Assembly: GCA_938091995.1 (NCBI GenBank)
Contig: CALKNZ010000011.1
Coordinates: forward strand, 1 to 64,000
DNA: 64,000 bases
Source of the DNA: an uncultured Luminiphilus sp.
GTDB lineage: Bacteria > Pseudomonadota > Gammaproteobacteria > Pseudomonadales > Halieaceae
Direction of reading: 5' to 3'
Shown here: positions 5,730-37,439 of the stretch, piece by piece
Layout of the letters: each line of letters starts with the position of its first letter
Numbering within the stretch: position 1 is the first letter of the stretch
The notes under the pieces: model-generated
The model's database searches: none
The model's input: the letters and a program-made list of their open reading frames with translations, nothing else
What the model was told of the DNA's origin: nothing
Made by a program: the position numbers and the translations under genes

Positions 5730-6320
5730 CTACGGAATGCGGTAGCCCTGATCGCGCAACATTTGCGCTAACTTAATTAAAGGTAGTCCTTGTAGGGCTG
5801 TTGGATCAGGGCCTTCTGTGGCCTTAAATAGGCTGATTCCCAGCGCTTCCCATTTGAAACTGCCCGCGCAATCAAGAGGTTGATCTAAAGTAATGTAGGT
5901 GCTGATTTCGGCGTCGGACAGTGCTCGCATGCTGACCTTAGTCGCAACCACTTGGCAGTCGAGCGAATCCGTTCGGGGTCGCCAGAGGGCAACACCGGTA
6001 TAAAAAGTTACGGTCTTGCCGCTGATAAGCCTCAGCTGATCTCTAGCCCGAGCCTCGGTAATAGGTTTACCCAAAAGCCGCCCATCACAAGCCGCAACCT
6101 GATCACTACCGATGCTCAGATAATCTCCCGGAAAGTCGCTCAATGCCTTGGCTTTTTCTATTGAAAGCCGCTGTGAGAGCGCCGCTGCGCTTTCAGATGA
6201 TCGTGATGATTCGTCAATAGCGACCCGCTGAATCTCAAATGGAAGGCGCAAGCGACCTAACAACTCGGCCCGGTAGGGCGATGTTGAGGCTAGAACGAGT
6301 GTTTCTGGTCGTGAATTCAA
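5730..6320 (-). CDS. Maf family nucleotide pyrophosphatase
   Basis: LVLASTSPYRAELLGRLRLPFEI and IGSDQVAACDGRLLGKP motifs; adjacent to yceD as in other gammaproteobacteria. Confidence 0.93.
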   Translation of the reverse strand: MNSRPETLVLASTSPYRAELLGRLRLPFEIQRVAIDESSRSSESAAALSQRLSIEKAKALSDFPGDYLSIGSDQVAACDGRLLGKPITEARARDQLRLISGKTVTFYTGVALWRPRTDSLDCQVVATKVSMRALSDAEISTYITLDQPLDCAGSFKWEALGISLFKATEGPDPTALQGLPLIKLAQMLRDQGYRIP

Positions 6321-6365
6321 TGTGCAGCCCTAACAAAAACCCTTTGTATTACCAGTATTTAAGTT

Positions 6366-6394
6366 TTGACACCTCGCGGGGTCATCCGTATTAT
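6366..6394 (+). promoter_or_regulatory. sigma70-type promoter for yceD-rpmF-fab cluster
   Basis: TTGACA - 17 nt - TATTAT; -10 ends 8 nt before the yceD ATG. Confidence 0.75.
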
Positions 6395-6402
6395 GCGCCG
6401 CC

Positions 6403-6942
6403 ATGACGCTCGGTGCACTCCCACAAACGGTCGAAGTGCGCACATTGGCGGCGCGCGCAGTCACACTGGCGGGACTTGTTGATCCGTCCAGGCTCGGTCG
6501 ATTGAACGCCGCCATTATAGGCATGCAGGGTCCTGTTGAGGTGATCGCAGAATTTTATCGCGATGAGGAAGGGCGTTATGTAGTGTCTATGCAGGTTTCA
6601 GCCCAAGTGCTGGTAACCTGCCAACGGTGTTTGAGCTCGCTAGAGCAACCGGTGGCATCTACCACACTGCTAGCAGCGGTTTGGACGGACGAGCAGGCGG
6701 GGCAACTACCGCCAAGGTATGAGCCACTAGTGGCTGATGCTGAAATTGAACTTTGGGAGGTTGTTGAAGACGAGCTCCTGTTGGCACTACCGAGTTTCAA
6801 TTATCACAGTGACATGAACTGTGGCGCGGAAACGGGAGTTCAGGCAGTGGGCGAACAGGGCGAAACGATAGCCCAGGGAAACCCAGAACAAGACAATCCT
6901 TTTAGTGTGCTGAAAGCACTGAAGGGCGATACGGATAGTTAA
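6403..6942 (+). CDS. yceD: YceD family protein (DUF177), 23S rRNA accumulation protein
   Basis: [12 protein letters not shown] motif, C-terminal [10 protein letters not shown]; immediately upstream of rpmF. Confidence 0.92.
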
Positions 6943-6985
6943 CGATCGAAACTGCAACAATGTATTTGATCGAATGGAGAAAGTT

Positions 6986-7168
6986 ATGGCTGTGCAAAAG
7001 AATCGTAAAACTCGCTCTCGTCGCGGCATGCGTCGTTCTCACGATGCCTTAGAGGGTCCTACACTTACTGTGGATACAACCTCTGGCGAAGTGCGTCGAC
7101 GTCATCACATGAGTGCTGACGGTTTTTATCGTGGTAAAAAAGTTATCAACACCGGTTCTGACGACTGA
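6986..7168 (+). CDS. rpmF: 50S ribosomal protein L32
   Basis: [22 protein letters not shown]; start at 6986 preferred to the listed upstream ATG. Confidence 0.96.
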
Positions 7169-7234
7169 TTAACCGGGCGGGAGCGCTACTCCTGCCCTGA
7201 CTTGAATTCAGTTCTGGGCCGGGGGGGCGTAGGC

Positions 7235-8236
7235 GTGTCACAGATAGAGCTCAAGGAGCAGGCCGCTTCTACTGGGGAGCGAGGCGCTGTCGGGTTTGTG
7301 TTTCCTGGTCAAGGTTCCCAATACCTCGGGATGCTCTCAACTATCGCCGGTGACGAAAGCGTTATACGCGATACCTTTTCGGAAGCTTCAGATATTCTCT
7401 CCTTCGACTTGTGGTCTCTGAGTCAAGACGGACCTGCAGAGTCGCAAGCCCTCACTGCAAATACTCAACCGCTAATATTGACCGCAAGCGTTGCACTTTA
7501 CCGTCTGTGGTTACAGCGAGGAGGGCGACGTCCAGACGTCGTTGCGGGGCACAGCTTAGGCGAGTTTTCGGCGTTAGTGGCCGCTGGGTCTCTTGCCTTT
7601 AGCGACGGCGTAAAACTTGTGCGTCTTCGCGGCGAAGCGATGCAGGCGGCTGTCCCCATTGGTGACGGTGCCATGGCGGCGGTTTTGGGGCTAGACGACG
7701 AAGTCATTAAATCAGTTTGCGCTGAGGCCAGTATTGAGGGAGCGGCCCAGGTGATGGGCGTTAACTTTAATTCGCCGGGTCAGGTTGTCATCGCCGGTCA
7801 TGCTGACGCCGTAGCTCAGGCCTCGCTGGCGTTAAAGGCTGCCGGATCGAAACGCATTTTACCACTGCCGGTAAGTGCGCCTTTTCATACGCCGTTAATG
7901 CAGCCTGCCGCTGTCGTTTTGAATAACGCGTTAGCGGACATTGCATTGGCTGACGCTCAGGTGCCTGTTATTAGCAACGTCGACGCCCATCCTCATCAAG
8001 GTAGTGCAACGATTGCGGAATTACTCGTGCAGCAGGTCGTGGCACCCGTACAATGGACAGGTTGTGTGCAGACAATGTTGGAGCTGGGTTGTACTAGCTT
8101 CATAGAATGTGGCCCGGGCAAGGTTCTTGCGGGTTTGCTGCGCCGCATCGACCGGTCAAAGCCTTGCTTTTGTATTGAGAGTCCCGAGGCAATTCGGGAT
8201 GCCCTGAACCATAGCGCCGAGGTGCGAGAAGCATGA
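7235..8236 (+). CDS. fabD: malonyl-CoA:ACP transacylase
   Basis: FVFPGQGSQYLGML, VAGHSLGEFSALVAAG; GTG start at 7235 chosen over TTG at 7202, start uncertain. Confidence 0.94.
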   Translation: MSQIELKEQAASTGERGAVGFVFPGQGSQYLGMLSTIAGDESVIRDTFSEASDILSFDLWSLSQDGPAESQALTANTQPLILTASVALYRLWLQRGGRRPDVVAGHSLGEFSALVAAGSLAFSDGVKLVRLRGEAMQAAVPIGDGAMAAVLGLDDEVIKSVCAEASIEGAAQVMGVNFNSPGQVVIAGHADAVAQASLALKAAGSKRILPLPVSAPFHTPLMQPAAVVLNNALADIALADAQVPVISNVDAHPHQGSATIAELLVQQVVAPVQWTGCVQTMLELGCTSFIECGPGKVLAGLLRRIDRSKPCFCIESPEAIRDALNHSAEVREA

Positions 8237-8973
8237 GTGAAACCCATCCCCCTGTCGCACTGGTAACGGGCGCTAGCCGCGGTATCGGTTTTGCCATTGC
8301 CAATACGCTAGCCAATGAAAAGATGATCGTAGTTGGTACTGCAACGACCCAAGCAGGTGCCGATAGTATTGAAGCTAGACTGGGGCCACAGGGAGGCGCT
8401 GGGCTGGTGCTCGATGTTGCTAGCGAAGGCAGTATCGAAGACTTGATGACTACAATTAAAGCCCGTTTCGGTGCGCCGTTGGTATTGGTAAACAATGCGG
8501 GAATCACGCGAGATAACATTCTCATGCGGATGAAAACAGAAGAGTGGGATAACGTTATTGACACCAATTTAAGTTCAGTTTTTCGCCTAAGCAAGGCCTG
8601 CCTTAGAGGTATGACTAAGGCTCGATGGGGTCGTATCGTCACTATTACCTCGGTGGTGGGTTCTATGGGCAATGCTGGGCAAGCCAATTATGCTGCGACA
8701 AAGGCGGGGGCCGAGGGTTTTACGCGTGCGCTTGCGCGTGAAGTAGGATCTCGAGCCATTACGGTCAACGCGGTCGCCCCAGGCTTTATTGATACTGATA
8801 TGACACGAGATTTGTCAGACGAAAACCGTAATCTCATGCTTAATCAAATACCTCTATCGCGCCTAGGTCGCCCAGAGGAAGTCGCTGAAACGGTCAGGTT
8901 TTTGACTAGTGATGCAGCGGCTTACATCACCGGGGAGACGATACACGTCAATGGTGGTATGTACATGGCCTAA
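8233..8973 (+). CDS. fabG: 3-oxoacyl-ACP reductase
   Basis: SDR: TGASRGIG, NNAG, YAATKAG; ATGA overlap with fabD. Confidence 0.95.
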   Translation: MSETHPPVALVTGASRGIGFAIANTLANEKMIVVGTATTQAGADSIEARLGPQGGAGLVLDVASEGSIEDLMTTIKARFGAPLVLVNNAGITRDNILMRMKTEEWDNVIDTNLSSVFRLSKACLRGMTKARWGRIVTITSVVGSMGNAGQANYAATKAGAEGFTRALAREVGSRAITVNAVAPGFIDTDMTRDLSDENRNLMLNQIPLSRLGRPEEVAETVRFLTSDAAAYITGETIHVNGGMYMA

Positions 8974-9078
8974 TGGCCAGTCTGATCGAGTATTCTATCT
9001 GATGGCATTTACAGGTAGAATCCGCGTACTGATGAGGGCCTACGAGTCCGCCAACAAGTTGGGAGAGTAAAAGAGACC

Positions 9079-9315
9079 ATGAGCAGCATTGAAGATCGAG
9101 TCAAAAAAATCGTTGCCGAGCAGCTGGGTGTTAAAGAAGACGAGGTTCGCACTGAGGCGTCTTTCGTTGACGACCTAGGCGCAGATTCACTGGATACCGT
9201 AGAGCTTGTGATGGCCCTTGAGGAGGAGTTTGAAACAGAAATTCCAGATGAGGAAGCCGAGAAAATTACGACGGTGCAGTTGGCGATCAACTACATCAAT
9301 GAAAACCTAGCCTGA
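9079..9315 (+). CDS. acpP: acyl carrier protein
   Basis: [20 protein letters not shown]. Confidence 0.98.
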
Positions 9316-9344
9316 GATTTTCTGAACATACACAAAGTATGAGG

Positions 9345-9378
9345 GCCGCTCTGCACTAGTGACGAGCGGCTTTTTTTT
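9345..9378 (+). terminator. intra-operon rho-independent terminator after acpP
   Basis: GCCGCTC-tgcactagtgac-GAGCGGC followed by TTTTTTTT. Confidence 0.85.
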
Positions 9379-9459
9379 GTGCGGCTTGATTTTTTTGAGG
9401 TCCATGAAGACCTTTGGCGCTGAGAATTGAGTGGCGCCCCTAGTCGAGGGAGACTGTTC

Positions 9460-10704
9460 ATGAACGGTAATCGTGTGGTAGTGACTGGTCTAGGTGCAGT
9501 GACGCCAGTGGGGTTGGATGTAGCCTCGAGCTGGCAAGCGATCTGCGACGGAAAAAGTGGTGCGGCGAGCATCGAAGGGTTCAACACCGATGCCTTCAGC
9601 ACGCAATTTAGTTGTTCAGTTAAAGACTTTTCAACCGAAGGGTTTTTGGCGCCCAAAGATTCCAAACGCATGGACCCGTTTATTCAGTTTGGCATGGTCG
9701 CGGGTATTCAAGCGATTCGGGATAGTGGCCTTGAGGTTACCGAAGCTAACTGTGAGCGTATTGGGTGCGCAATAGGGTCAGGCATTGGCGGTATTGGTTC
9801 CATAGAGCGCAATAATGAGTTGATACTCAATGCCGGGCCTCGACGCATGTCGCCCTTTTTCGTGCCCGGCGCCATTATTAATATGATCAGCGGCAATCTT
9901 TCAGTCATGTACAACCTTCAGGGGCCCAATTTGGCGATCGTCACTGCTTGTACGAGTGGCACTCATAATATTGGTATGGGCGCTCGCTTGATCGCAACGG
10001 GCGAGGCCGATGCCATGCTGGTAGGGGGCGCTGAAATGGCAACGACGCCGGTTGGATTAGGGGGCTTTGCTGCAGCGCGGGCGCTCTCAACCCGAAATGA
10101 GAATCCGGAGCAGGCATCTAGGCCCTGGGACGCTGACCGTGATGGATTTGTACTGGGTGATGGTGCGGCTATGCTCATGCTTGAATCATTAGATAGTGCT
10201 GTTGCACGAAAGGCGACGATCTATGCAGAGCTTACGGGTTTCGGTATGAGTGGAGACGCCTATCACATGACCTCGCCCCCTGAGGATGGTCGTGGCGCAG
10301 CACGCTCGATGGCTAACGCGCTTCGGGACTCGGGTCTCAATGCATCAGATATTGGCTATATCAACGCACATGGCACCTCAACAATCGTAGGAGATCGTGC
10401 TGAGACTATGGCCGTAAAGTCAGTTTTCGGTGACGCTGCGTCTCAGCTGGCAGTGAGCTCCACCAAGTCGATGATCGGACACCTATTGGGCGCAGCGGGG
10501 GCCGTTGAAGCGGTATTTACGATTCTCGCGCTACGCGATGGCGTCGCCCCCCCTACAATTAATCTCGATAATCCGGGAGAGGGCTGTGACCTTAACTATG
10601 TTCCTCATAGCGCTCAGCAGAGAACCATTAACCATGCCATTAGCAACTCCTTTGGTTTTGGTGGGACGAATGGCACTCTGGTTTTCAGTCAGTTTTCAGC
10701 GTAA
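9460..10704 (+). CDS. fabF: beta-ketoacyl-ACP synthase II
   Basis: [12 protein letters not shown] active site, [20 protein letters not shown] at 9460. Confidence 0.96.
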
Positions 10705-10712
10705 CACCTCCC

Positions 10713-11546
10713 TTGGCTACTGAGACCTTTTGGGTCGATGGTGTCATCAACGCCGAGGTGTCTCCAGATGATCGTGGCTTGTGTTTAGCTGACGGTGTCT
10801 TTGAAACACTGCGGGTTGAGCGTGGGGTTATTTTGTGTAAACGCCGACATGTTCAACGCTTGAGTAGAGGGCTGGAGACCTTAAGGTTCCCGGCGCCTGC
10901 GCAGAGCGGCTTGAGGCTTGTTGAGCAGGCCGAGAGCGCTTTGACAAATGCCATCGTTGATGCCTCAGGTACCTTGAGGCTCACGGTTACCCGCGGTTCC
11001 GGGCCCCGAGGTTACAAGATCCCCAAGAATCAATCGCCACGCAGTATTTTGCGCTTCAGTCCGGGATTAGCCATGGCGGAGCCGCCTGCGGCCCTGACTA
11101 TCAGCAAGGTGTACTGGTCTAGCCAGCCTGTATTTCAAGGCTGTAAGTTATTGGCAAGAACCGAGCAGGTGATGGCGCTGGAGGAGGCGCGCGCTCGTGG
11201 GTTCACCGACGCTATCATGTGCGATTCAGCGGGTTCATGGGTGTCGACAACCAGTGGTAATTTGTTTCTGCGCATCGGCGCTTGTCTTGTTACGCCCCCC
11301 GTCGATGATGTCGGCATAGCAGGGACTCGCAGGGAAGCTATCGTGGACCGCTGGGCCAAGATCCTAGGCTATGAGGTGAGCATTCGAAAAATCACCCGTG
11401 ACGATATAATATCGGCACAGGAGGCTTGGTCTTGCAATGCGGTCAGAGGCATTAGTCCTATAGTTTCGGTAGATGAATTCCTTTTTGCTGAGACGACGGC
11501 CAGTGAGGCTTTAGCGGCTTGCATTCATCAAGAGGGGGCCCTTTGA
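10713..11546 (+). CDS. pabC: aminodeoxychorismate lyase (class IV aminotransferase)
   Basis: Class IV PLP fold (DRGLCLADGVFETLRV) and position between fabF and mltG. Confidence 0.9.
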   Translation: MATETFWVDGVINAEVSPDDRGLCLADGVFETLRVERGVILCKRRHVQRLSRGLETLRFPAPAQSGLRLVEQAESALTNAIVDASGTLRLTVTRGSGPRGYKIPKNQSPRSILRFSPGLAMAEPPAALTISKVYWSSQPVFQGCKLLARTEQVMALEEARARGFTDAIMCDSAGSWVSTTSGNLFLRIGACLVTPPVDDVGIAGTRREAIVDRWAKILGYEVSIRKITRDDIISAQEAWSCNAVRGISPIVSVDEFLFAETTASEALAACIHQEGAL

Positions 11547-29809: not shown

Positions 29810-30880
29810 CTAGGGCTCAAAACTCATGGGAGCCCTACCGGTCATTCGTGTAAGAAGTTCATAACCAATGGTGCTTGCGTGCTGGGCAACCTCATTAACC
29901 GGTAGGTTTTTGCCCCAGAGTTCGACCGGAGTGCCGATTTGACAGTCGGGAAGGGTCGTGACGTCAACGGTGATCATGTCCATTGAAACTCTCCCAACCA
30001 GTGGAAATCGTTGGCCGTGTATCCATACGGGTGTCCCATCTTCTGCTCCTCTAGGATAACCGTCGCCATAACCCACTGGAACGGTAGCAATGAGGCTGTC
30101 CTGAGGTGCTGTCCAGCGTCCGCCGTAACCCACAGTCTGACCCCGAGGAACCTTTCTAAGCGCCATGATTTCCGATTTAAAGGACATAACGGGGCTTAGG
30201 GACGTAGGTTCTAAGCTGCCTGCATATGCTGCTCCATACAGCATGATTCCAGGTCGCAACCAATCTGTGGTCGACGTTAAGTTATTAATAATGGCCGCTG
30301 AGTTGGCTAGGCTTGTCCCTGACATTGCCGTGCTTTCTAGTGATCGCCAAGCCTGTTGTTGTTCTCGAGTTAGCGATGAGGAGGGATTTTCTCCATCGGC
30401 AAAGTGGCTCATGAGGGTTAACGAGTCTGCACCCAATTTGCGCAGACGCTCGGTCACCTGCACCGCCTCCGCGGGAGAAAAGCCGAGTCGATGCATGCCC
30501 GTGTCTATTTTAATCCATAGCGGAGTCGAGGGCATTTGGTCAGCCGCTTCCAGCAAGTCTATTTGATGATGACTATGCAGCGTCATCATCAGATTATGCT
30601 CAACGATGGTGTCGCAATCAGCTCGATCAAACGGACCCTCTAGCAACAATAAGGGCAGGGTGATGCCTTCTTGACGCAGTAGCACGGCCTCCTCGCAGAA
30701 CGCGACGGCAAATCCATCAACGTGTTGTTGTAGAGCCCGACAACAAGGAATAAGTCCGTGCCCATAGGCATTGGCTTTCACAGAGGCAAGAATTTTGCTG
30801 TTTCCCGCACGGCTGCGAGTTACTGCCACGTTGTGAACGAGGGAATCGAGATCAATAGAGATGGCTGTGGGTCTTGGCAC
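29810..30880 (-). CDS. alr: alanine racemase
   Basis: SVKANAYGHGL PLP-lysine motif; VPVGYGDGYPRG and GRVSMDMITVDVT; GTG start at 30880, 8 nt after the upstream gene. Confidence 0.93.
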   Translation of the reverse strand: MPRPTAISIDLDSLVHNVAVTRSRAGNSKILASVKANAYGHGLIPCCRALQQHVDGFAVAFCEEAVLLRQEGITLPLLLLEGPFDRADCDTIVEHNLMMTLHSHHQIDLLEAADQMPSTPLWIKIDTGMHRLGFSPAEAVQVTERLRKLGADSLTLMSHFADGENPSSSLTREQQQAWRSLESTAMSGTSLANSAAIINNLTSTTDWLRPGIMLYGAAYAGSLEPTSLSPVMSFKSEIMALRKVPRGQTVGYGGRWTAPQDSLIATVPVGYGDGYPRGAEDGTPVWIHGQRFPLVGRVSMDMITVDVTTLPDCQIGTPVELWGKNLPVNEVAQHASTIGYELLTRMTGRAPMSFEP

Positions 30881-30888
30881 GTTATATT

Positions 30889-31743
30889 TCAGGCACTGAA
30901 GCGATGACGCGCAAACAGCGATTGTGCCGCTGTCCATACGGGTCCCGGCTTGCCATCGTTTACGCTGTAACCGTCGATAGCAATAACGGGGGCAATTTCT
31001 TTCGTTGAGCTGGTCAGCCAGAGTTCATCGGCTGCCATTACTTCGGCACGGGTGACCGCACGTTCTTCTACATTCCAGCCCTCAGCGCGTAAAATATCCA
31101 CCAGCATGTTTCGTGTTATCCCAGGTAATTTTTCAATATCCAAAGAGGGGGTGACTACGGTTCCATTGTGAACAATAAAAACGTTACACGCAGCCGCCTC
31201 TGTGAGTTCTTCCTGCTCATTAAAGAGGATAATTTCATCTGCGCCAGCATCAACACCTTCCATCATATGCAGTACATTGCCCAGTAACGCAACAGATTTG
31301 ATATCGCAGCGTTTCCAGCGGCGATCGGTAGCGGTGGCCACTTGATAGCAGGTGGCGTGATCGGGGTCGCCGTCACTGGGAGCATTTACGGTGAATGTGT
31401 AGGCAAATATTGTGGGCTCGCAGTCAGTGGGGAAGCGATGATTCCGAACGGCGGCAGCGCCGCGGGTTACCTGTAGATAGACCCCCTGATATTCCCCGTC
31501 ATTCTTTTCGGTTAATTCATCAAAAAGTGTTCGCCAGGCTTCAATAGTCATAGGATTCTCAAGGCTGATCGCTGCTAAGCCTTGCTCAAGGCGTTGCATA
31601 TGTCTCTGAAAGCCGACAGGGCGACCGTTGTACCAGGGAATGACCTCGTAAATGCCATCGCCGAACAAAAAGCCGCGATCCATTGGAGAAATGCGAGCCT
31701 GCTCTAGAGGCAAAAACATACCGTTAAGATAGGCGATTGTCAT
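30889..31743 (-). CDS. D-amino acid aminotransferase-like class IV PLP enzyme
   Basis: ISPMDRGFLFGDGIYEV; DRRWKRCDIKSVALLGNVL lysine region; EAAACNVFIV. Confidence 0.88.
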   Translation of the reverse strand: MTIAYLNGMFLPLEQARISPMDRGFLFGDGIYEVIPWYNGRPVGFQRHMQRLEQGLAAISLENPMTIEAWRTLFDELTEKNDGEYQGVYLQVTRGAAAVRNHRFPTDCEPTIFAYTFTVNAPSDGDPDHATCYQVATATDRRWKRCDIKSVALLGNVLHMMEGVDAGADEIILFNEQEELTEAAACNVFIVHNGTVVTPSLDIEKLPGITRNMLVDILRAEGWNVEERAVTRAEVMAADELWLTSSTKEIAPVIAIDGYSVNDGKPGPVWTAAQSLFARHRFSA

Positions 31744-32588
31744 GGTTGTGTTCCTCCGCTAATGATTAGCCTGATCTCTTCAATGAGAGCTTCACCCACT
31801 GCAGCCTCAAAGCCATCTTCAGTATTGGTTGGCTCATGACTTACTCCGTCGACGGCGCCTAAATCCACACAACGTTGTAACAGTGCATCGCTGTCGAGCC
31901 AATCCAGTATGGGACGACTGCAGAGTGACTCTGCCATAGCAATCAGAGCGTAAGCTCCCCAATTAGATACGTCAGCTACAATAAGCTCATCGCACCCCGC
32001 ACGTGCCGGTTGTATATCTAGAGTGTCGAGAATCTCACCGGCTCGCCCCATGCCGGCTTCATTGCCGCCATCTCCAATGGCTATGACGGGGCAAGTAGCG
32101 AGTTCCAAGAGTGGCTCAACGGGTCGACAATGCTCGGTGATATCTTTTCCGACAATGTTGTAGAAGCGGCCATCTGCTGCAGCCCCGGGGCGTTCGATCA
32201 TGACTATGAGCGAGGGTGCCAAATCAAGAAGCAATCCCTGTGCTTCGGCATAAGCCTCCTCATAGTCAAAGCTTTTTAGTGGCCAGGTGCGAATCGACTC
32301 CCCGAGAGCTCCGATGATCGCATCTCCCGCAAGCAGCCAAGGCCGACTCCCTAGGCTGTCTAGAAAATGATAAAGCGCGAAGGCTCCGGGAGGGCCGTCG
32401 GTCTCAAAGGTGCCTGCAACAGGGAACCCGGTACAAATGATGATGTTTTCTTTAGCAGCCAGTACTTGTTCAGCCGCACGCAAAAGGTAGTTGGGTGACA
32501 GCGACTCCTGCACACGACGCATTCCTCTGGGATTTCGGGCGACTAGAGCGGCCTCTATGCGGCGACTGATTTCTTGTGATGACCTCAA
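31740..32588 (-). CDS. DUF4392 family protein (D-glutamate cyclase C-terminal-like)
   Basis: IIICTGFPVAGTFETDGPPGAFALYHFL, IERPGAAADGRFYNIVGKDIT, DVSNWGAYAL; 4-nt overlap with both neighbours. Confidence 0.82.
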   Translation of the reverse strand: MRSSQEISRRIEAALVARNPRGMRRVQESLSPNYLLRAAEQVLAAKENIIICTGFPVAGTFETDGPPGAFALYHFLDSLGSRPWLLAGDAIIGALGESIRTWPLKSFDYEEAYAEAQGLLLDLAPSLIVMIERPGAAADGRFYNIVGKDITEHCRPVEPLLELATCPVIAIGDGGNEAGMGRAGEILDTLDIQPARAGCDELIVADVSNWGAYALIAMAESLCSRPILDWLDSDALLQRCVDLGAVDGVSHEPTNTEDGFEAAVGEALIEEIRLIISGGTQP

Positions 32589-33565
32589 GGAGCGCTGTTC
32601 TCTAGGTTGCTAATGGCCTTTAAGTGGGTTTCTTCATAGTGCTGGTGTAGCCAAATAACTTGTTCTGCTGCTGCCAGCGTTACAGCCTCGAGTTGCACTC
32701 GCTGTCCTGCCCTTGCCTGACCAAGCCGAACGCGATCGGGAGGGATGATTACGCCCAGCTGAGGATAGCCACCCATCGTTTGGCGATCATTCAAAAGCAC
32801 GAGAGGTTGGCCATCGGGTGGAATTTGAATCGAGCCTAAACACGTGGCCTCTGACCATAGTTTCGTCAGGCCGGTATTAATCGGATCACCATTTAGAGGG
32901 ATAGCCATACGATTGGCGGCGCCTGAGATCGTGAAGTTCTGCACACTCAAAGTCTGCCTGCAGTTTTCGGTAACATCGTCATAGTGTAGACCGGCCACAA
33001 ATCGTAGTGTCAGAGTATCACTCTGCGTGCTTGTTTTTACGATGTTCTCATGGCGCCGGCGGCGCGGCTTTTTGCCGATGGTTGCCGATTCCAAGTGATT
33101 AGAGACGGGTAGCAGGTCTCCCGCTTTTAAAGCTTGGCCATTGAGTCCACCTAACCCTTCGCGAACAACCGTACTGCGACTACCCAGAACCGGTACAGTG
33201 TCTATTCCACCCTTAACGGCGAGATAGCTGTAAGTGCCCGTAATAGCTCTGCCGATAGTAATGGTCGATCCTGCTGTGACCGTTAGTCGTTGTTCCATTT
33301 CCTGAGGTTCGTCATCGATATGCAGCGTAACTTCAGCGCCACATAAAGATAGCTGTAGATTACAGGTTGCGATTAGAGTCATACCGGCGATCGCTATTTC
33401 GATACCAGCCAAGTCATCGGGGTTGCCCAGCAGCCGATTGGCACAGCGCAGTGAAAAGGCATCTAAAGCGCCACCTGTCGTGATGCCATGACCCAGATGG
33501 CCTATGCGGCCTAAATCCTGAACGGTAGCTAGCAGCCCTATTGTGACTATCCGAAGACCGGTCAC
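32585..33565 (-). CDS. pxpC: 5-oxoprolinase subunit PxpC (biotin-dependent carboxyltransferase/KipA family)
   Basis: TVQDLGRIGHLGHGITTGGALDAFSLRCANRLLGN; GYPQLGVIIPPDRVRLGQARAGQRV. Confidence 0.92.
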   Translation of the reverse strand: MTGLRIVTIGLLATVQDLGRIGHLGHGITTGGALDAFSLRCANRLLGNPDDLAGIEIAIAGMTLIATCNLQLSLCGAEVTLHIDDEPQEMEQRLTVTAGSTITIGRAITGTYSYLAVKGGIDTVPVLGSRSTVVREGLGGLNGQALKAGDLLPVSNHLESATIGKKPRRRRHENIVKTSTQSDTLTLRFVAGLHYDDVTENCRQTLSVQNFTISGAANRMAIPLNGDPINTGLTKLWSEATCLGSIQIPPDGQPLVLLNDRQTMGGYPQLGVIIPPDRVRLGQARAGQRVQLEAVTLAAAEQVIWLHQHYEETHLKAISNLENSAP

Positions 33566-34236
33566 AAGCTGCCACCCAGAGAGAAGAATTCATCTCGAGA
33601 AATCGGTTTAAAGACCACCTGGTCCCCAACTGCAATCAGCCCTGGGGGTGTTTGTGCTAAATCAAAGAGCGTAAGGGGGCATCGCCCTAATAGATGCCAT
33701 CCGCCCGGTGAGACCTTTGGGTAAACTGCTGTTTGTCGATCTGCAATCGCGACACTACCAGCAGGCACGAATCTTCGGGGCGTTCGAAGGCGTGGTATTT
33801 CCAGCTGCTCATCGACGTCCCCTAAATAGCAAAATCCCGGCGCAAACCCGGTAGCATAAGCGTTGTAGGGGCGACTGGAATGGAGCCTGATAACGGCTTC
33901 CATTGACAGCCCGCTGTTGTGGGCAACGGCCTGTAAATCTTCTCCCGATTCTTCGGAGTACCAGACGGGCAGTTCAACCGTTCGGCCCATATCTGGCTGA
34001 ATCTCCTGGTTGCTATCGAGATCATCTATGGCGGCCACTACAGCGTCTCGAGACAACTCCTCGGGGTCAAAGAAAAGCGTGAGGGTATGGTAGCCCAGTA
34101 CGCAATCTGTCAGCCCCTGAGGCCACTTTTTGCTCAGCCGGTCCCGAAGTGCAAGCAGGCTTGCGGTTACTGCAGGACTCGGTGGGCCGTCATGGCTCAC
34201 ACGTATACCGGTCAAACCAGCGTAGCTCCAACGCAT
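33562..34236 (-). CDS. pxpB: 5-oxoprolinase subunit PxpB (KipI family)
   Basis: YNAYATGFAPGFCYLGDVDEQLEIPRLRTPRRFVPAGSVAIADRQTAVYPKVSPGGWHLLGR. Confidence 0.92.
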   Translation of the reverse strand: MRWSYAGLTGIRVSHDGPPSPAVTASLLALRDRLSKKWPQGLTDCVLGYHTLTLFFDPEELSRDAVVAAIDDLDSNQEIQPDMGRTVELPVWYSEESGEDLQAVAHNSGLSMEAVIRLHSSRPYNAYATGFAPGFCYLGDVDEQLEIPRLRTPRRFVPAGSVAIADRQTAVYPKVSPGGWHLLGRCPLTLFDLAQTPPGLIAVGDQVVFKPISRDEFFSLGGSL

Positions 34237-34239
34237 AGG

Positions 34240-35034
34240 TCAGCCCGCAGGCACTTGTAGCGCACTGCGAATAGCTTTGAGCATTTCAAGTGCTTTTGGA
34301 GTATCACCGTGTACACAAAGGGTATCTGGGCGAATATTGAGTTTGTGTCCTTTAACGCTACGCAACGTGCCCGAGGTGATGGCTTTCGCCTGAGCCACTG
34401 CCGCAGTGACATCTAGTAGGGCGCCAGGCTTGTCTCGCGGCACGAGATAGCCCGCCCTTGTGTAGCCTCTGTCGGCGAATGCCTCAAAACGCAAAGTAAG
34501 CCCATATTCGAAGGCCGTTTCTACCGATTTTTTATCCCCTGGTGTGGCGAGCATGACTAAGTCAAGGGGACGATACCACGAAGCAATCGCTTTCATGACC
34601 GTGCTCTCGAGTGACTTATCGGCGTTCATGTCGTTGTAAAGCGCTCCGTGGGGTTTTACGTAGGTCACGCGACTGCCGTAGGTTCGCGCCATACCGTCGA
34701 GTGCAGATATTTGATACTGAATGCAGTCAATAAGCTCCTGGCCACGGAGACTCATCGAACGACGGCCAAAGCCTTGTAAATCTGGATAAGCTACGTGGGC
34801 GCCGATCTCGACTTTATGTCGCTTGGCTAGCAAAACCGTCTTGCGGATAATTGAAGGATCACCACCATGATATCCACAGGCCACGTTCGCGCAGTCAATG
34901 AGAGGCATGATTTCTTCATCACAGCCCATTGTGTATGCACCAAAACCTTCACCCAAATCGCAGTTGAGTTTGATGTTTAGTGGGGCGGGAGGTTTCCTTT
35001 GGGCGCGACGTACAACCCTTTTTACAGCTTTCAC
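34240..35034 (-). CDS. pxpA: 5-oxoprolinase subunit PxpA (LamB/YcsF family)
   Basis: [47 protein letters not shown]. Confidence 0.95.
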
Positions 35035-35831
35035 AGTATGGCGAGTCCTGTATTGGGTTTATCGGATACCAGCATATGCCCCGGAGCGTGGGTAAACGCC
35101 ACGGGTAGTTTGGCATTTTCTAAGGCCACCTGTGGGGTGACCCCACAGGCCCAGAATAGGGGCACTTCGCCTTCTTTTATTGACACGGCGTCTCCAAAAT
35201 CAGGCTGTTGGAGGTTGTTGATGCCTATTTGTGCGGGGTCTCCAAAATGAATGGGAGCACCATGAACTGCAGGGAACCGGGTGCAAATTTGGATGGCTCT
35301 AATGGCGTCTTTGGGTGTCATAGGACGCATGCTAACCACTAAGTTTCCAGCAAAGGGACCGGCAGAAAAACAGGGTAGATTAGTTCGAAACATGGGCACA
35401 TTCACACCCTCAGAAATGTTCCGAATTTCAAGACCATCGGCCAGCAGGGCCTCTTCGAATGAGAATGAGCAGCCAAGTGCAAAGGCAACGTGGTCACTGC
35501 ACCAGTGGTTGAGCAGATTGGAGGGCTCCTCGACTAATACGCCATTCTCCCAGCGCCGATATCGCGAAATATCGGTGCGCACGTCAATATCAGGGCCAAG
35601 TTCGGGCAGGCTAACGTCCCCTGCCATTGGACTCACGGCAAGCAGGGGGCATGGCTTGGGGTTGCGTCGACAAAAATCGGCAAAGTCGCTGGCATAATGC
35701 TGGGGGATGATCACCAAATTACATTGGACAAAACCCGGAGCCAAACCGCTGGTCGTTTCATTGAAATGCCCTTCACGCGCGGCAAGACGTAGCTGTTCGG
35801 GTGTCTTATGCTTGAGCTGGTCACCAACCAC
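35031..35831 (-). CDS. putative hydro-lyase, DUF1445/YcsI family (D-glutamate cyclase N-terminal-like)
   Basis: [38 protein letters not shown]...[17 protein letters not shown] start at 35831 preceded by AAAGGAGGT, preferred to listed start 35912. Confidence 0.88.
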
Positions 35832-35903
35832 TTTTACCTCCTTTGCTTTATCTCGCTGCGAGCTCTTGTATAGTAAGGCAAACATACCATTGCGAGAGAC
35901 CTG

Positions 35904-37439
35904 ATGCCCCACATATCAATTACTGCCTCTGAAACACCTCACAAGCCCGCCTTCGTCATGGCGAACTCTGGGGAAATGGTCACCTACGGCGAATTGGAGG
36001 GCCGCAGTAATCAGATAGCACATTTGTTTCGCCTATGCGGGCTTAAGTCTGGTGACCATGTCGCCATTATGCTGGAAAACTGTCGGCAGTTTCTTGAAAT
36101 TACGACGGGTGCCATGCGCTCCGGCATTATTTTCACTCCAATCAGTACACATCTCAAGGAAGATGAGACGGCCTACATTTTGGAGAACTGCGGTGCCAAA
36201 TTATTTATTGCTTCACACGCATTGGCCGCTGTGGCCCGTCACATGATTGGCAGTGCGGAAGCACTGAAGCATTTTTATATGGTCGGGGGAATCGAGGAGG
36301 GCTTTCTATCCTTTGAGGAAACTGTTGATGCACTGCCCACGTCGACTATTGATGATCAAGCGATGGGCACGACCATGTTGTATTCCTCGGGAACGACCGG
36401 CAAGCCAAAAGGTGTTTATACCAAGCCTTATACCGAGGTTTTTGATGAGCCTCTGCCCCTAACGCTGTCCTTGGGCGCCGCTTTTGGTTTTGGACCCGAA
36501 ACAACCTATTTATCACCCGCACCGCTGTACCATGCGGCACCGCTGCACTACAACATGGTGGTACTCGATACCGGGGGCACCTCCATTATCATGGAGAAGT
36601 TTGATGCCGTCAGAGCTCTGGAGTTAATACAGGAGCACCGGGTGACGCACAGTCAGTGGGTGCCCATTATGTTCGTTCGGATGCTCAAGCTCCCTGAGGC
36701 TGTGCGCACCCAATTTGACACCAGCTCGATGCAGGTTGCTATTCACGCCGCCGCGCCTTGCCCAATTGATGTTAAGGAACAAATGATTGAATGGTGGGGA
36801 CCCGTGATTCTCGAATATTATTCGTCGAGTGAGGGCGTTGGCTTTACTCTGATTGACTCAAAGGATTGGCTCAACCACAAAGGCTCGGTTGGGCGCCCTC
36901 TGTTTGGTGTGCCTCATGTGTTGGATGAGGAAGGTAATGAATTGTCTGCGGGTAAAGTTGGTGCGATATGGTTTTCAGACATAGCCAATAAATTTGAGTA
37001 CCACGATGAGCCAGGCAAGACGGCAGAGGCGTACAATAAACACGGCTGGAGTTCAGTCGGTGACATGGGCTACCTTGATGAAGAGGGTTACCTGTACCTG
37101 ACCGATCGCAAAAACTTCACGATCATATCTGGTGGCGTCAATATTTATCCCGCTGAAATAGAAAACCTACTAATCAATCACGACAAGGTCGCCGATGTGG
37201 CAGTTTTTGGCGTGCCCTGCGACGAGTTTGGCGAGTCGGTTCAAGCTGTTGTACAGCCCGCCAATTGGGTTGACGCTACTGATGAGACTGCGTTGGAGCT
37301 TATGCAATGGCTCAAAGAGCGGTTGTCTCATATCAAAATTCCCAGAAATTTAGATTTCATGGAACAGCTCCCTAGGATGGATAACGGTAAACTGTATAAG
37401 CGCCACTTGATGGACGCCTATCGAAACCAAAATAAGTGA
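35904..37439 (+). CDS. acyl-CoA synthetase (AMP-dependent ligase)
   Basis: [50 protein letters not shown]. Confidence 0.93.

Follow-up and report, generated by a model that had tools for sequence, protein, structure and literature searches.

A conserved operon of seven genes was found in a 64,000-nucleotide (nt) stretch of DNA from an uncultured Luminiphilus sp. (contig CALKNZ010000011.1; the whole stretch is called the window below), which is part of a draft genome of 2.88 Mb that is 80.75% complete. The reading that we favour, with moderate confidence, is that the operon handles the D-glutamate (D-Glu) pool of a bacterium without MurI by means of two modules: the alr–dat pair would supply D-Glu, and DUF1445, DUF4392 and the 5-oxoprolinase PxpABC would drain it. 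The genomic basis of this reading is the linkage of the genes, the absence of MurI, the retention of the first module where the second is lost, the joint loss of DUF1445 and DUF4392, and the replacement of Pxp. From that basis we infer the reaction directions, the drain role (from linkage), and a D-to-L step. The features concerned are as follows.

35832–35903, no strand assigned: divergent intergenic region of 72 nt between a fadD-like gene (plus strand) and DUF1445 (minus strand), the probable promoter region of the operon
35031–35831, minus strand: DUF1445 (PF07286, UPF0317, "putative hydro-lyase"), 266 amino acids (aa), GTG start, Pfam E-value 1.2e-64
34240–35034, minus strand: pxpA, predicted 5-oxoprolinase subunit A (LamB/YcsF), 264 aa, Pfam 3.6e-87
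33562–34236, minus strand: pxpB, predicted 5-oxoprolinase subunit B (KipI-like), 224 aa, Pfam 8.6e-63
32585–33565, minus strand: pxpC, predicted 5-oxoprolinase subunit C (KipA-like), 326 aa, Pfam 4.7e-77
31740–32588, minus strand: DUF4392 (PF14336, D-glutamate cyclase-like C-terminal domain), 282 aa, TTG start, Pfam 2.7e-58
30889–31743, minus strand: dat, predicted D-amino acid aminotransferase (DAAT, fold IV), 284 aa, assigned by profile and PDB matches and by residues
29810–30880, minus strand: alr, predicted alanine racemase, 356 aa, GTG start at 30880, assigned by TIGR00492 and residues

All seven open frames are intact, free of internal stops, and ordered DUF1445-pxpA-pxpB-pxpC-DUF4392-dat-alr on the minus strand. 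An earlier note on this DNA had described the same order, strand and coordinates, which held when open frames, starts and stops were rechecked; the junction spacing that it gave was confirmed by recomputation, with 4-nt overlaps at DUF1445/pxpA, pxpB/pxpC, pxpC/DUF4392 and DUF4392/dat, and gaps of 3 nt at pxpA/pxpB and 8 nt at dat/alr. Its gene identities were likewise borne out, as the Pfam matches of all seven proteins (PF07286, PF03746, PF02682, PF02626, PF14336, PF01063, and PF01168/PF00842) are well over thresholds. The current Pfam names are D-Glu_cyclase for PF07286 (formerly DUF1445) and GLUCM-like_C for PF14336 (formerly DUF4392). Taken at its longest, the alr frame would run from ATG 30937 and share 49 nt with dat, and the longest DUF1445 frame begins at 35912; the shorter starts (GTG 30880 for alr, 35831 for DUF1445) are the more likely ones. 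The DUF1445 start at 35831 is preceded by a good ribosome site, AAAGGAGG. No sigma-70 consensus site was found within the 72-nt region, and promoter and terminator scans yielded no more than in shuffled sequence.

A scan with the DUF4392 protein, taking one genome per species, returned 226 stretches with relatives, of which 80 loci were kept; the conservation counts rest on the 61 loci with enough flank. The nearest matches of the window gene come from Luminiphilus and other Halieaceae (OM60/NOR5) genomes. Each of pxpA, pxpB and pxpC is present in 61/61 loci, DUF1445 in 60, dat in 59, and alr in 54. The complete set of seven was found in 53 loci and the order is colinear in all 61; since the order is also kept across genera, a chance cluster is ruled out. 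In the Oceanospirillaceae-type genomes, a LysR regulator gene is inserted between DUF4392 and dat, and the whole block adjoins dacA, rlpA, mltB, rodA and mrdA-like genes, which constitute a peptidoglycan cluster (the names were read off the sequences, and Pfam checks cover dacA and a lytic transglycosylase only, in other genomes). The Pseudoalteromonas block consists of DUF1445-pxpA-DUF4392-aminotransferase, with pxpBC not adjoining.

Several loci depart from this arrangement. At loci L025 and L026 (contig C8 of genome G010), frame changes split DUF4392, pxpC and alr and leave dat intact, which reflects either decay or draft sequence errors. In locus L137 (G048, 6115–11064), which lacks DUF1445 and DUF4392, pxpABC is followed in a row by a phosphoribosyltransferase-domain gene, dat and alr, with recJ- and thrC-like genes upstream. 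Loci L162 and L163 combine LysR, DUF1445, a TRAP transporter and pxpABC without DUF4392, which likely serve to take up and metabolise 5-oxoproline or a compound related to it. In Salipiger and Sinorhizobium (L172, L173), distant DUF4392 genes stand beside TRAP or tripartite transporters, with an arylmalonate-decarboxylase-family gene, or a RidA gene with a hydantoinase B/oxoprolinase gene nearby, among the neighbours; going by these neighbours, the substrates of other DUF4392 members are probably different small molecules.

The cell wall cannot be built without D-Glu, which most Gram-negatives are stated to produce by way of MurI (PMC5885031). MurI was sought with TIGR00067 in a survey in which many genomes are drafts, and was not found in the window's genome or in any of the 37 genus genomes, including 12 with a completeness of 90% or more. 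Weak matches to the model in the genus score 25–28 bits, as against 154–238 bits for true MurI in the order, with no intermediate scores. Nor was MurI found in 39 of 40 other operon-bearing genomes from many genera (the completeness of these 40 is not stated); the operon-bearing genomes are kin, so this is an association rather than a set of independent counts. Across the class, in a sample mostly of one genome per family, MurI is present in 61 of 185 genomes. DAAT occurs in 110 of the 124 MurI-less and 27 of the 61 MurI-bearing genomes of this sample (p = 4e-10) and, among 22 other families of the order (one genome each), in 7/7 MurI-less versus 2/15 MurI-bearing genomes (p = 2e-4). The 14 class genomes with neither MurI nor DAAT are partly incomplete or reduced, and may obtain D-Glu through MurL/MurD2 or in some other way.

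In other families, dat directly follows dacA in the wall cluster rodA-mltB-rlpA-dacA-dat-ybeD-lipB-lipA (L142, L143, L144), or stands beside the ybeD-lipB-lipA side of that cluster (L141, L145). The operon alr is the only Alr found in the window's genome, which thus combines the absence of MurI with the presence of both Alr and DAAT. Given the absence of MurI, the enrichment of DAAT in genomes without it, and the placement of dat in wall clusters, DAAT fed by Alr is the likely source of D-Glu. The predicted pair probably provides peptidoglycan synthesis with both D-alanine (D-Ala) and D-Glu independently of MurI, so that its main role would lie in biosynthesis and not in catabolism. That alr and dat form a redundant catabolic pair was rejected on account of the same absence of MurI and of the lack of a second detectable Alr.

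The division into two modules is apparent because six genus-mates (G006, G016, G017, G027, G030, G035) keep dat-alr and have lost the other five genes. At the same site they carry fadD followed by dat-alr-ppx, with DUF1445-pxpABC-DUF4392 cleanly absent, and neither DUF1445 nor DUF4392 was found anywhere in their genomes. The six form one clade (100/98) nested among carriers, and the absence would most simply be explained by a single loss event. They were considered as a contradiction of the role of dat-alr in D-Glu supply, which was rejected, as dat-alr is kept in place and one clade amounts to one event. The module of DUF1445, DUF4392 and PxpABC is dispensable. As MurI is absent in the genus and dat-alr is kept when the remaining genes are lost, the pair most likely runs towards D-Glu for the wall.

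Both DUF1445 and DUF4392 are present in 22 genus genomes, the window's counted, and DUF1445 alone in one (G028, 68% complete, with the gene near a contig start); this co-occurrence supports joint action as a putative split D-glutamate cyclase. Of the class-wide sample, only the window's own genome yielded DUF4392, and the correlations involving it rest on the DUF4392 loci and their relatives. The clade without the five-gene module carries pxpABC elsewhere, beside an Nramp transporter (L156–L161, L170), on a deeply different Pxp branch, and the carriers within the genus have no Pxp besides that of the operon. We read the distant Pxp as a probable substitute for a 5-oxo-L-prolinase that the cell requires; on this reading the operon Pxp would have the usual task of opening 5-oxo-L-proline.

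Profile scores and residues agree with these assignments to varying degrees. DUF1445 reaches 381.5 bits with NF003969 (cut-off 324), pxpA 309 bits with NF003816 (cut-off 213), and pxpB 163.7 bits with TIGR00370 (cut-off 145.55). With pxpC at 240 bits on the domain model TIGR00724 (cut-off 230), three adjacent Pxp subunits exceed family cut-offs; on the PxpC equivalog model pxpC scores 195 and falls below the cut-off of 500. Alr scores 339.6 bits with TIGR00492 (cut-off 168), and its catalytic K54 and Y271 are conserved. The dat product remains under the curated NCBIfam cut-offs (TIGR01121, 229 versus 277 bits; NF005209, 259 versus 320 bits), although both are still its best-scoring models, and its best PDB match is the D-amino acid aminotransferase 4pbc (1.4e-56). 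Its K149, R100, H102, Y32 and E182 are at least 97% conserved in 124 sequences, so that the pyridoxal phosphate (PLP) lysine and an Arg/His pair with Tyr are present; in Bacillus DAAT, we take R98 and H100 to be the pair that binds the carboxylate of the D-amino acid, accompanied by Y31, and K145 to be the PLP lysine.

Six acids of DUF4392 (E62, D64, E132, D173, E177, D247), at least 97% conserved in 121 sequences, correspond to the metal ligands E59, D61, E115, D157, E161 and D246 of TON_0340, and the PDB entries matched are 4fc5/5gkx. The DUF1445 model (pLDDT 89.8) fits both solved UPF0317 structures, 2pif and 3db9 (TM 0.82–0.92), and its only other significant fold match is the NrpR-like nitrogen repressor MJ0159 (3nek; E-value 2.5e-6, TM 0.38–0.45). 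Since NrpR acts in a 2-oxoglutarate-dependent manner (PMC9765008), a C5-dicarboxylate (2-oxoglutarate- or glutamate-like) ligand pocket in DUF1445 may be taken as a lead, no more. An Asp/Glu-racemase-type fold was considered for DUF1445 and rejected, the structure search having given UPF0317 and the weak NrpR-like domain only; a profile search of PDB sequences with DUF1445 returned nothing further. By homology and co-occurrence, DUF1445 and DUF4392 are a putative D-glutamate cyclase (EC 4.2.1.48), which would convert D-Glu into 5-oxo-D-proline.

In the proposed scheme, Alr would convert L-alanine (L-Ala) into D-Ala, the amino group of which DAAT would transfer to 2-oxoglutarate to give D-Glu, and the pair would thereby stand in for MurI and furnish peptidoglycan with both of its D-amino acids. 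With a reversible transaminase, the D-Glu level would track those of 2-oxoglutarate, pyruvate and D-Ala, and any surplus would for this reason be drained. The split cyclase would turn the surplus into 5-oxoproline, and the ATP-driven PxpABC would reopen this to glutamate, the ATP cost making the return one-way. The most likely role of the five genes would thus be to drain or repair, in one direction, a surplus of D-Glu and 5-oxoproline, and the D-to-L step of this route may be a racemisation by one of the proteins or the acceptance of the D-form by Pxp.

Several points weigh against this scheme. The enzymatic activities of all seven proteins are predicted, and the drain role derives from linkage. 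The known substrate of bacterial Pxp is 5-oxo-L-proline. The product of the mammalian cyclase DGLUCY is 5-oxo-D-proline (PMC5339696), and the mismatch between the two opens a chirality gap. DAAT working in reverse is itself an outlet for D-Glu, so that a further one is not indispensable. The evidence for the retained dat-alr module stems from one loss event, and two operon-bearing genomes possess MurI, namely Thalassotalea ND16A (the exception among the 40) and G037. The search for D-Glu sources covered MurI, besides which the MurD2/MurL bypass or a DapF-type racemase may supply D-Glu. Three ways may lead across the chirality gap: one of the proteins may invert 5-oxoproline, Pxp may take the D-form, or the opposite enantiomers may be handled separately. 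A more specific version, less likely than not, is that the five-gene module performs an ATP-driven, one-way conversion of D-Glu through 5-oxo-D-proline and 5-oxo-L-proline to L-glutamate (L-Glu), with the inversion carried out by DUF1445, DUF4392 or the operon-type Pxp. If this holds, the inversion of 5-oxoproline would be a novel enzymatic step, and MurI-less bacteria would have a new means of setting the D-Glu pool.

Among the alternatives, a catabolic operon survives best, though it appears rather unlikely. It would degrade D-Glu, D-Ala and 5-oxoproline from peptidoglycan or the environment, with DAAT converting D-Glu into 2-oxoglutarate, Alr converting D-Ala into L-Ala, and Pxp opening 5-oxoproline. 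The enzymes are reversible, G043 and G057 carry DUF1445 and pxpABC with a TRAP transporter and a LysR regulator, which is a catabolic layout, and the LysR gene inside the Oceanospirillaceae-type operon points the same way; however, the operon of the window contains no transporter gene, the missing MurI means that D-Glu must come from some other route, dat-alr persists without the remaining genes, and no other Alr was found. The earlier note had proposed a catabolic route into 2-oxoglutarate and L-Ala, which the absence of MurI in the genus and the retention of dat-alr do not favour as the principal function. The stereochemical question that it raised, a futile ATP-consuming cycle if PxpABC acted on the enantiomer made by the cyclase, was soundly framed. 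Other parts of its interpretation were supported: besides the gene identities, the split D-glutamate cyclase is supported by the occurrence of DUF1445 and DUF4392 together in all but one genus genome having either, the expected linkage was found in the neighbourhood check, and the connection with peptidoglycan is supported.

Metabolite repair is a less probable explanation. Here 5-oxo-D-proline would arise spontaneously from D-Glu, and 5-oxo-L-proline from L-Glu or L-glutamine; the split cyclase would work in reverse as a 5-oxo-D-proline hydrolase, pulled by MurD and DAAT, and Pxp would repair the L-form, with no futile cycle. Such repair would explain the co-location without any D-to-L step, the spontaneous formation of 5-oxo-L-proline is established (PMC13274462), and the separate Pxp kept after loss of the module implies that repair of the L-form is separable. 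Against it, plasma 5-oxo-D-proline in people dosed with D-Glu reached a level ten-fold higher than that of D-Glu (PMC5339696), a sign that the equilibrium may lie towards the ring, and in G043, G051 and G057 DUF1445 accompanies pxpABC with neither DUF4392 nor dat adjoining.

The weakest alternative, in which the operon-type Pxp or DUF1445 would be specific for 5-oxo-D-proline and the operon would salvage this compound into D-Glu for the wall, and DUF1445 and DUF4392 would act on or regulate 5-oxoproline instead of being cyclases, fits the linkage of pxpABC to dat-alr in G048, the retention of pxpA with DUF4392-dat in Pseudoalteromonas, and the distant likeness of DUF1445 to a 2-oxoglutarate-sensing NrpR-type domain, but is improbable considering that the known Pxp substrate is the L-form and that the operon Pxp, sole in the genus carriers and replaced when lost, behaves as expected of a housekeeping L-enzyme.

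The function of DAAT as a D-Glu source and the association of pxp with DUF1445 are already known, whereas we found no description, in the literature searched, of the seven-gene combination, its tie to the loss of MurI, or the modular loss. No link between bacterial DUF1445/DUF4392, Pxp and DAAT was found in open-access literature; among the papers found, only a general homology survey names both D-glutamate cyclase and 5-oxoprolinase, and the TON_0340 paper (PMC5132392) assigns no bacterial function to DUF1445. Reliance on Alr and DAAT for D-Glu appears to extend over a large group of Gammaproteobacteria, and in these marine MurI-less bacteria two probable D-Glu-making genes and five probable disposal or recovery genes are joined in one conserved operon. 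D-Glu supply is thereby united with the two uncharacterised bacterial halves of a mammalian D-Glu-clearing enzyme, which provides a testable context and role for DUF1445, DUF4392, bacterial D-glutamate cyclase and 5-oxoprolinase. Cultured carriers include Luminiphilus syltensis, Chromatocurvus halotolerans, Haliea salexigens and strain HTCC2080.

Compared with known systems, the closest counterpart of the putative cyclase is mammalian DGLUCY (9030617O03Rik/C14orf159; PMC5339696), a DUF1445-DUF4392 fusion, the N-terminal and C-terminal domains of which are homologous to the two separate proteins of the window. The bacterial version, with its predicted cyclase activity, is split and linked to Pxp, DAAT and Alr, and humans excrete 5-oxo-D-proline rather than recover it. 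DUF4392 is also homologous to the Mn-dependent TON_0340 of Thermococcus, with which it has the six metal-binding acidic residues in common; the activity assayed for TON_0340 was that of a weak phosphatase (PMC5132392). The same three Pxp subunits occur in the pxpABC operon of B. subtilis (with ycsG and ycsI) and in pxpTABC of C. glutamicum, and DUF1445 (YcsI) is already present in the former, the Nramp gene ycsG of which imports Mn (PMC10448178). In contrast to both, the operon described here has added DUF4392, dat and alr and lacks a transporter, and its Pxp branches deeply apart from the Nramp-linked Pxp of the genus-mates. The Xanthomonas MurD2/MurL bypass (PMC8788868) is another MurI-free supply of D-Glu, with different chemistry. 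The Alr/DAAT alternative to MurI, in which the D-Ala of peptidoglycan comes from Alr and the D-Glu from DAAT, is established in principle (PMC8788868, PMC5885031) and resembles the one proposed here, except that in these Gram-negatives it is probably the sole route and is joined to a putative disposal module.

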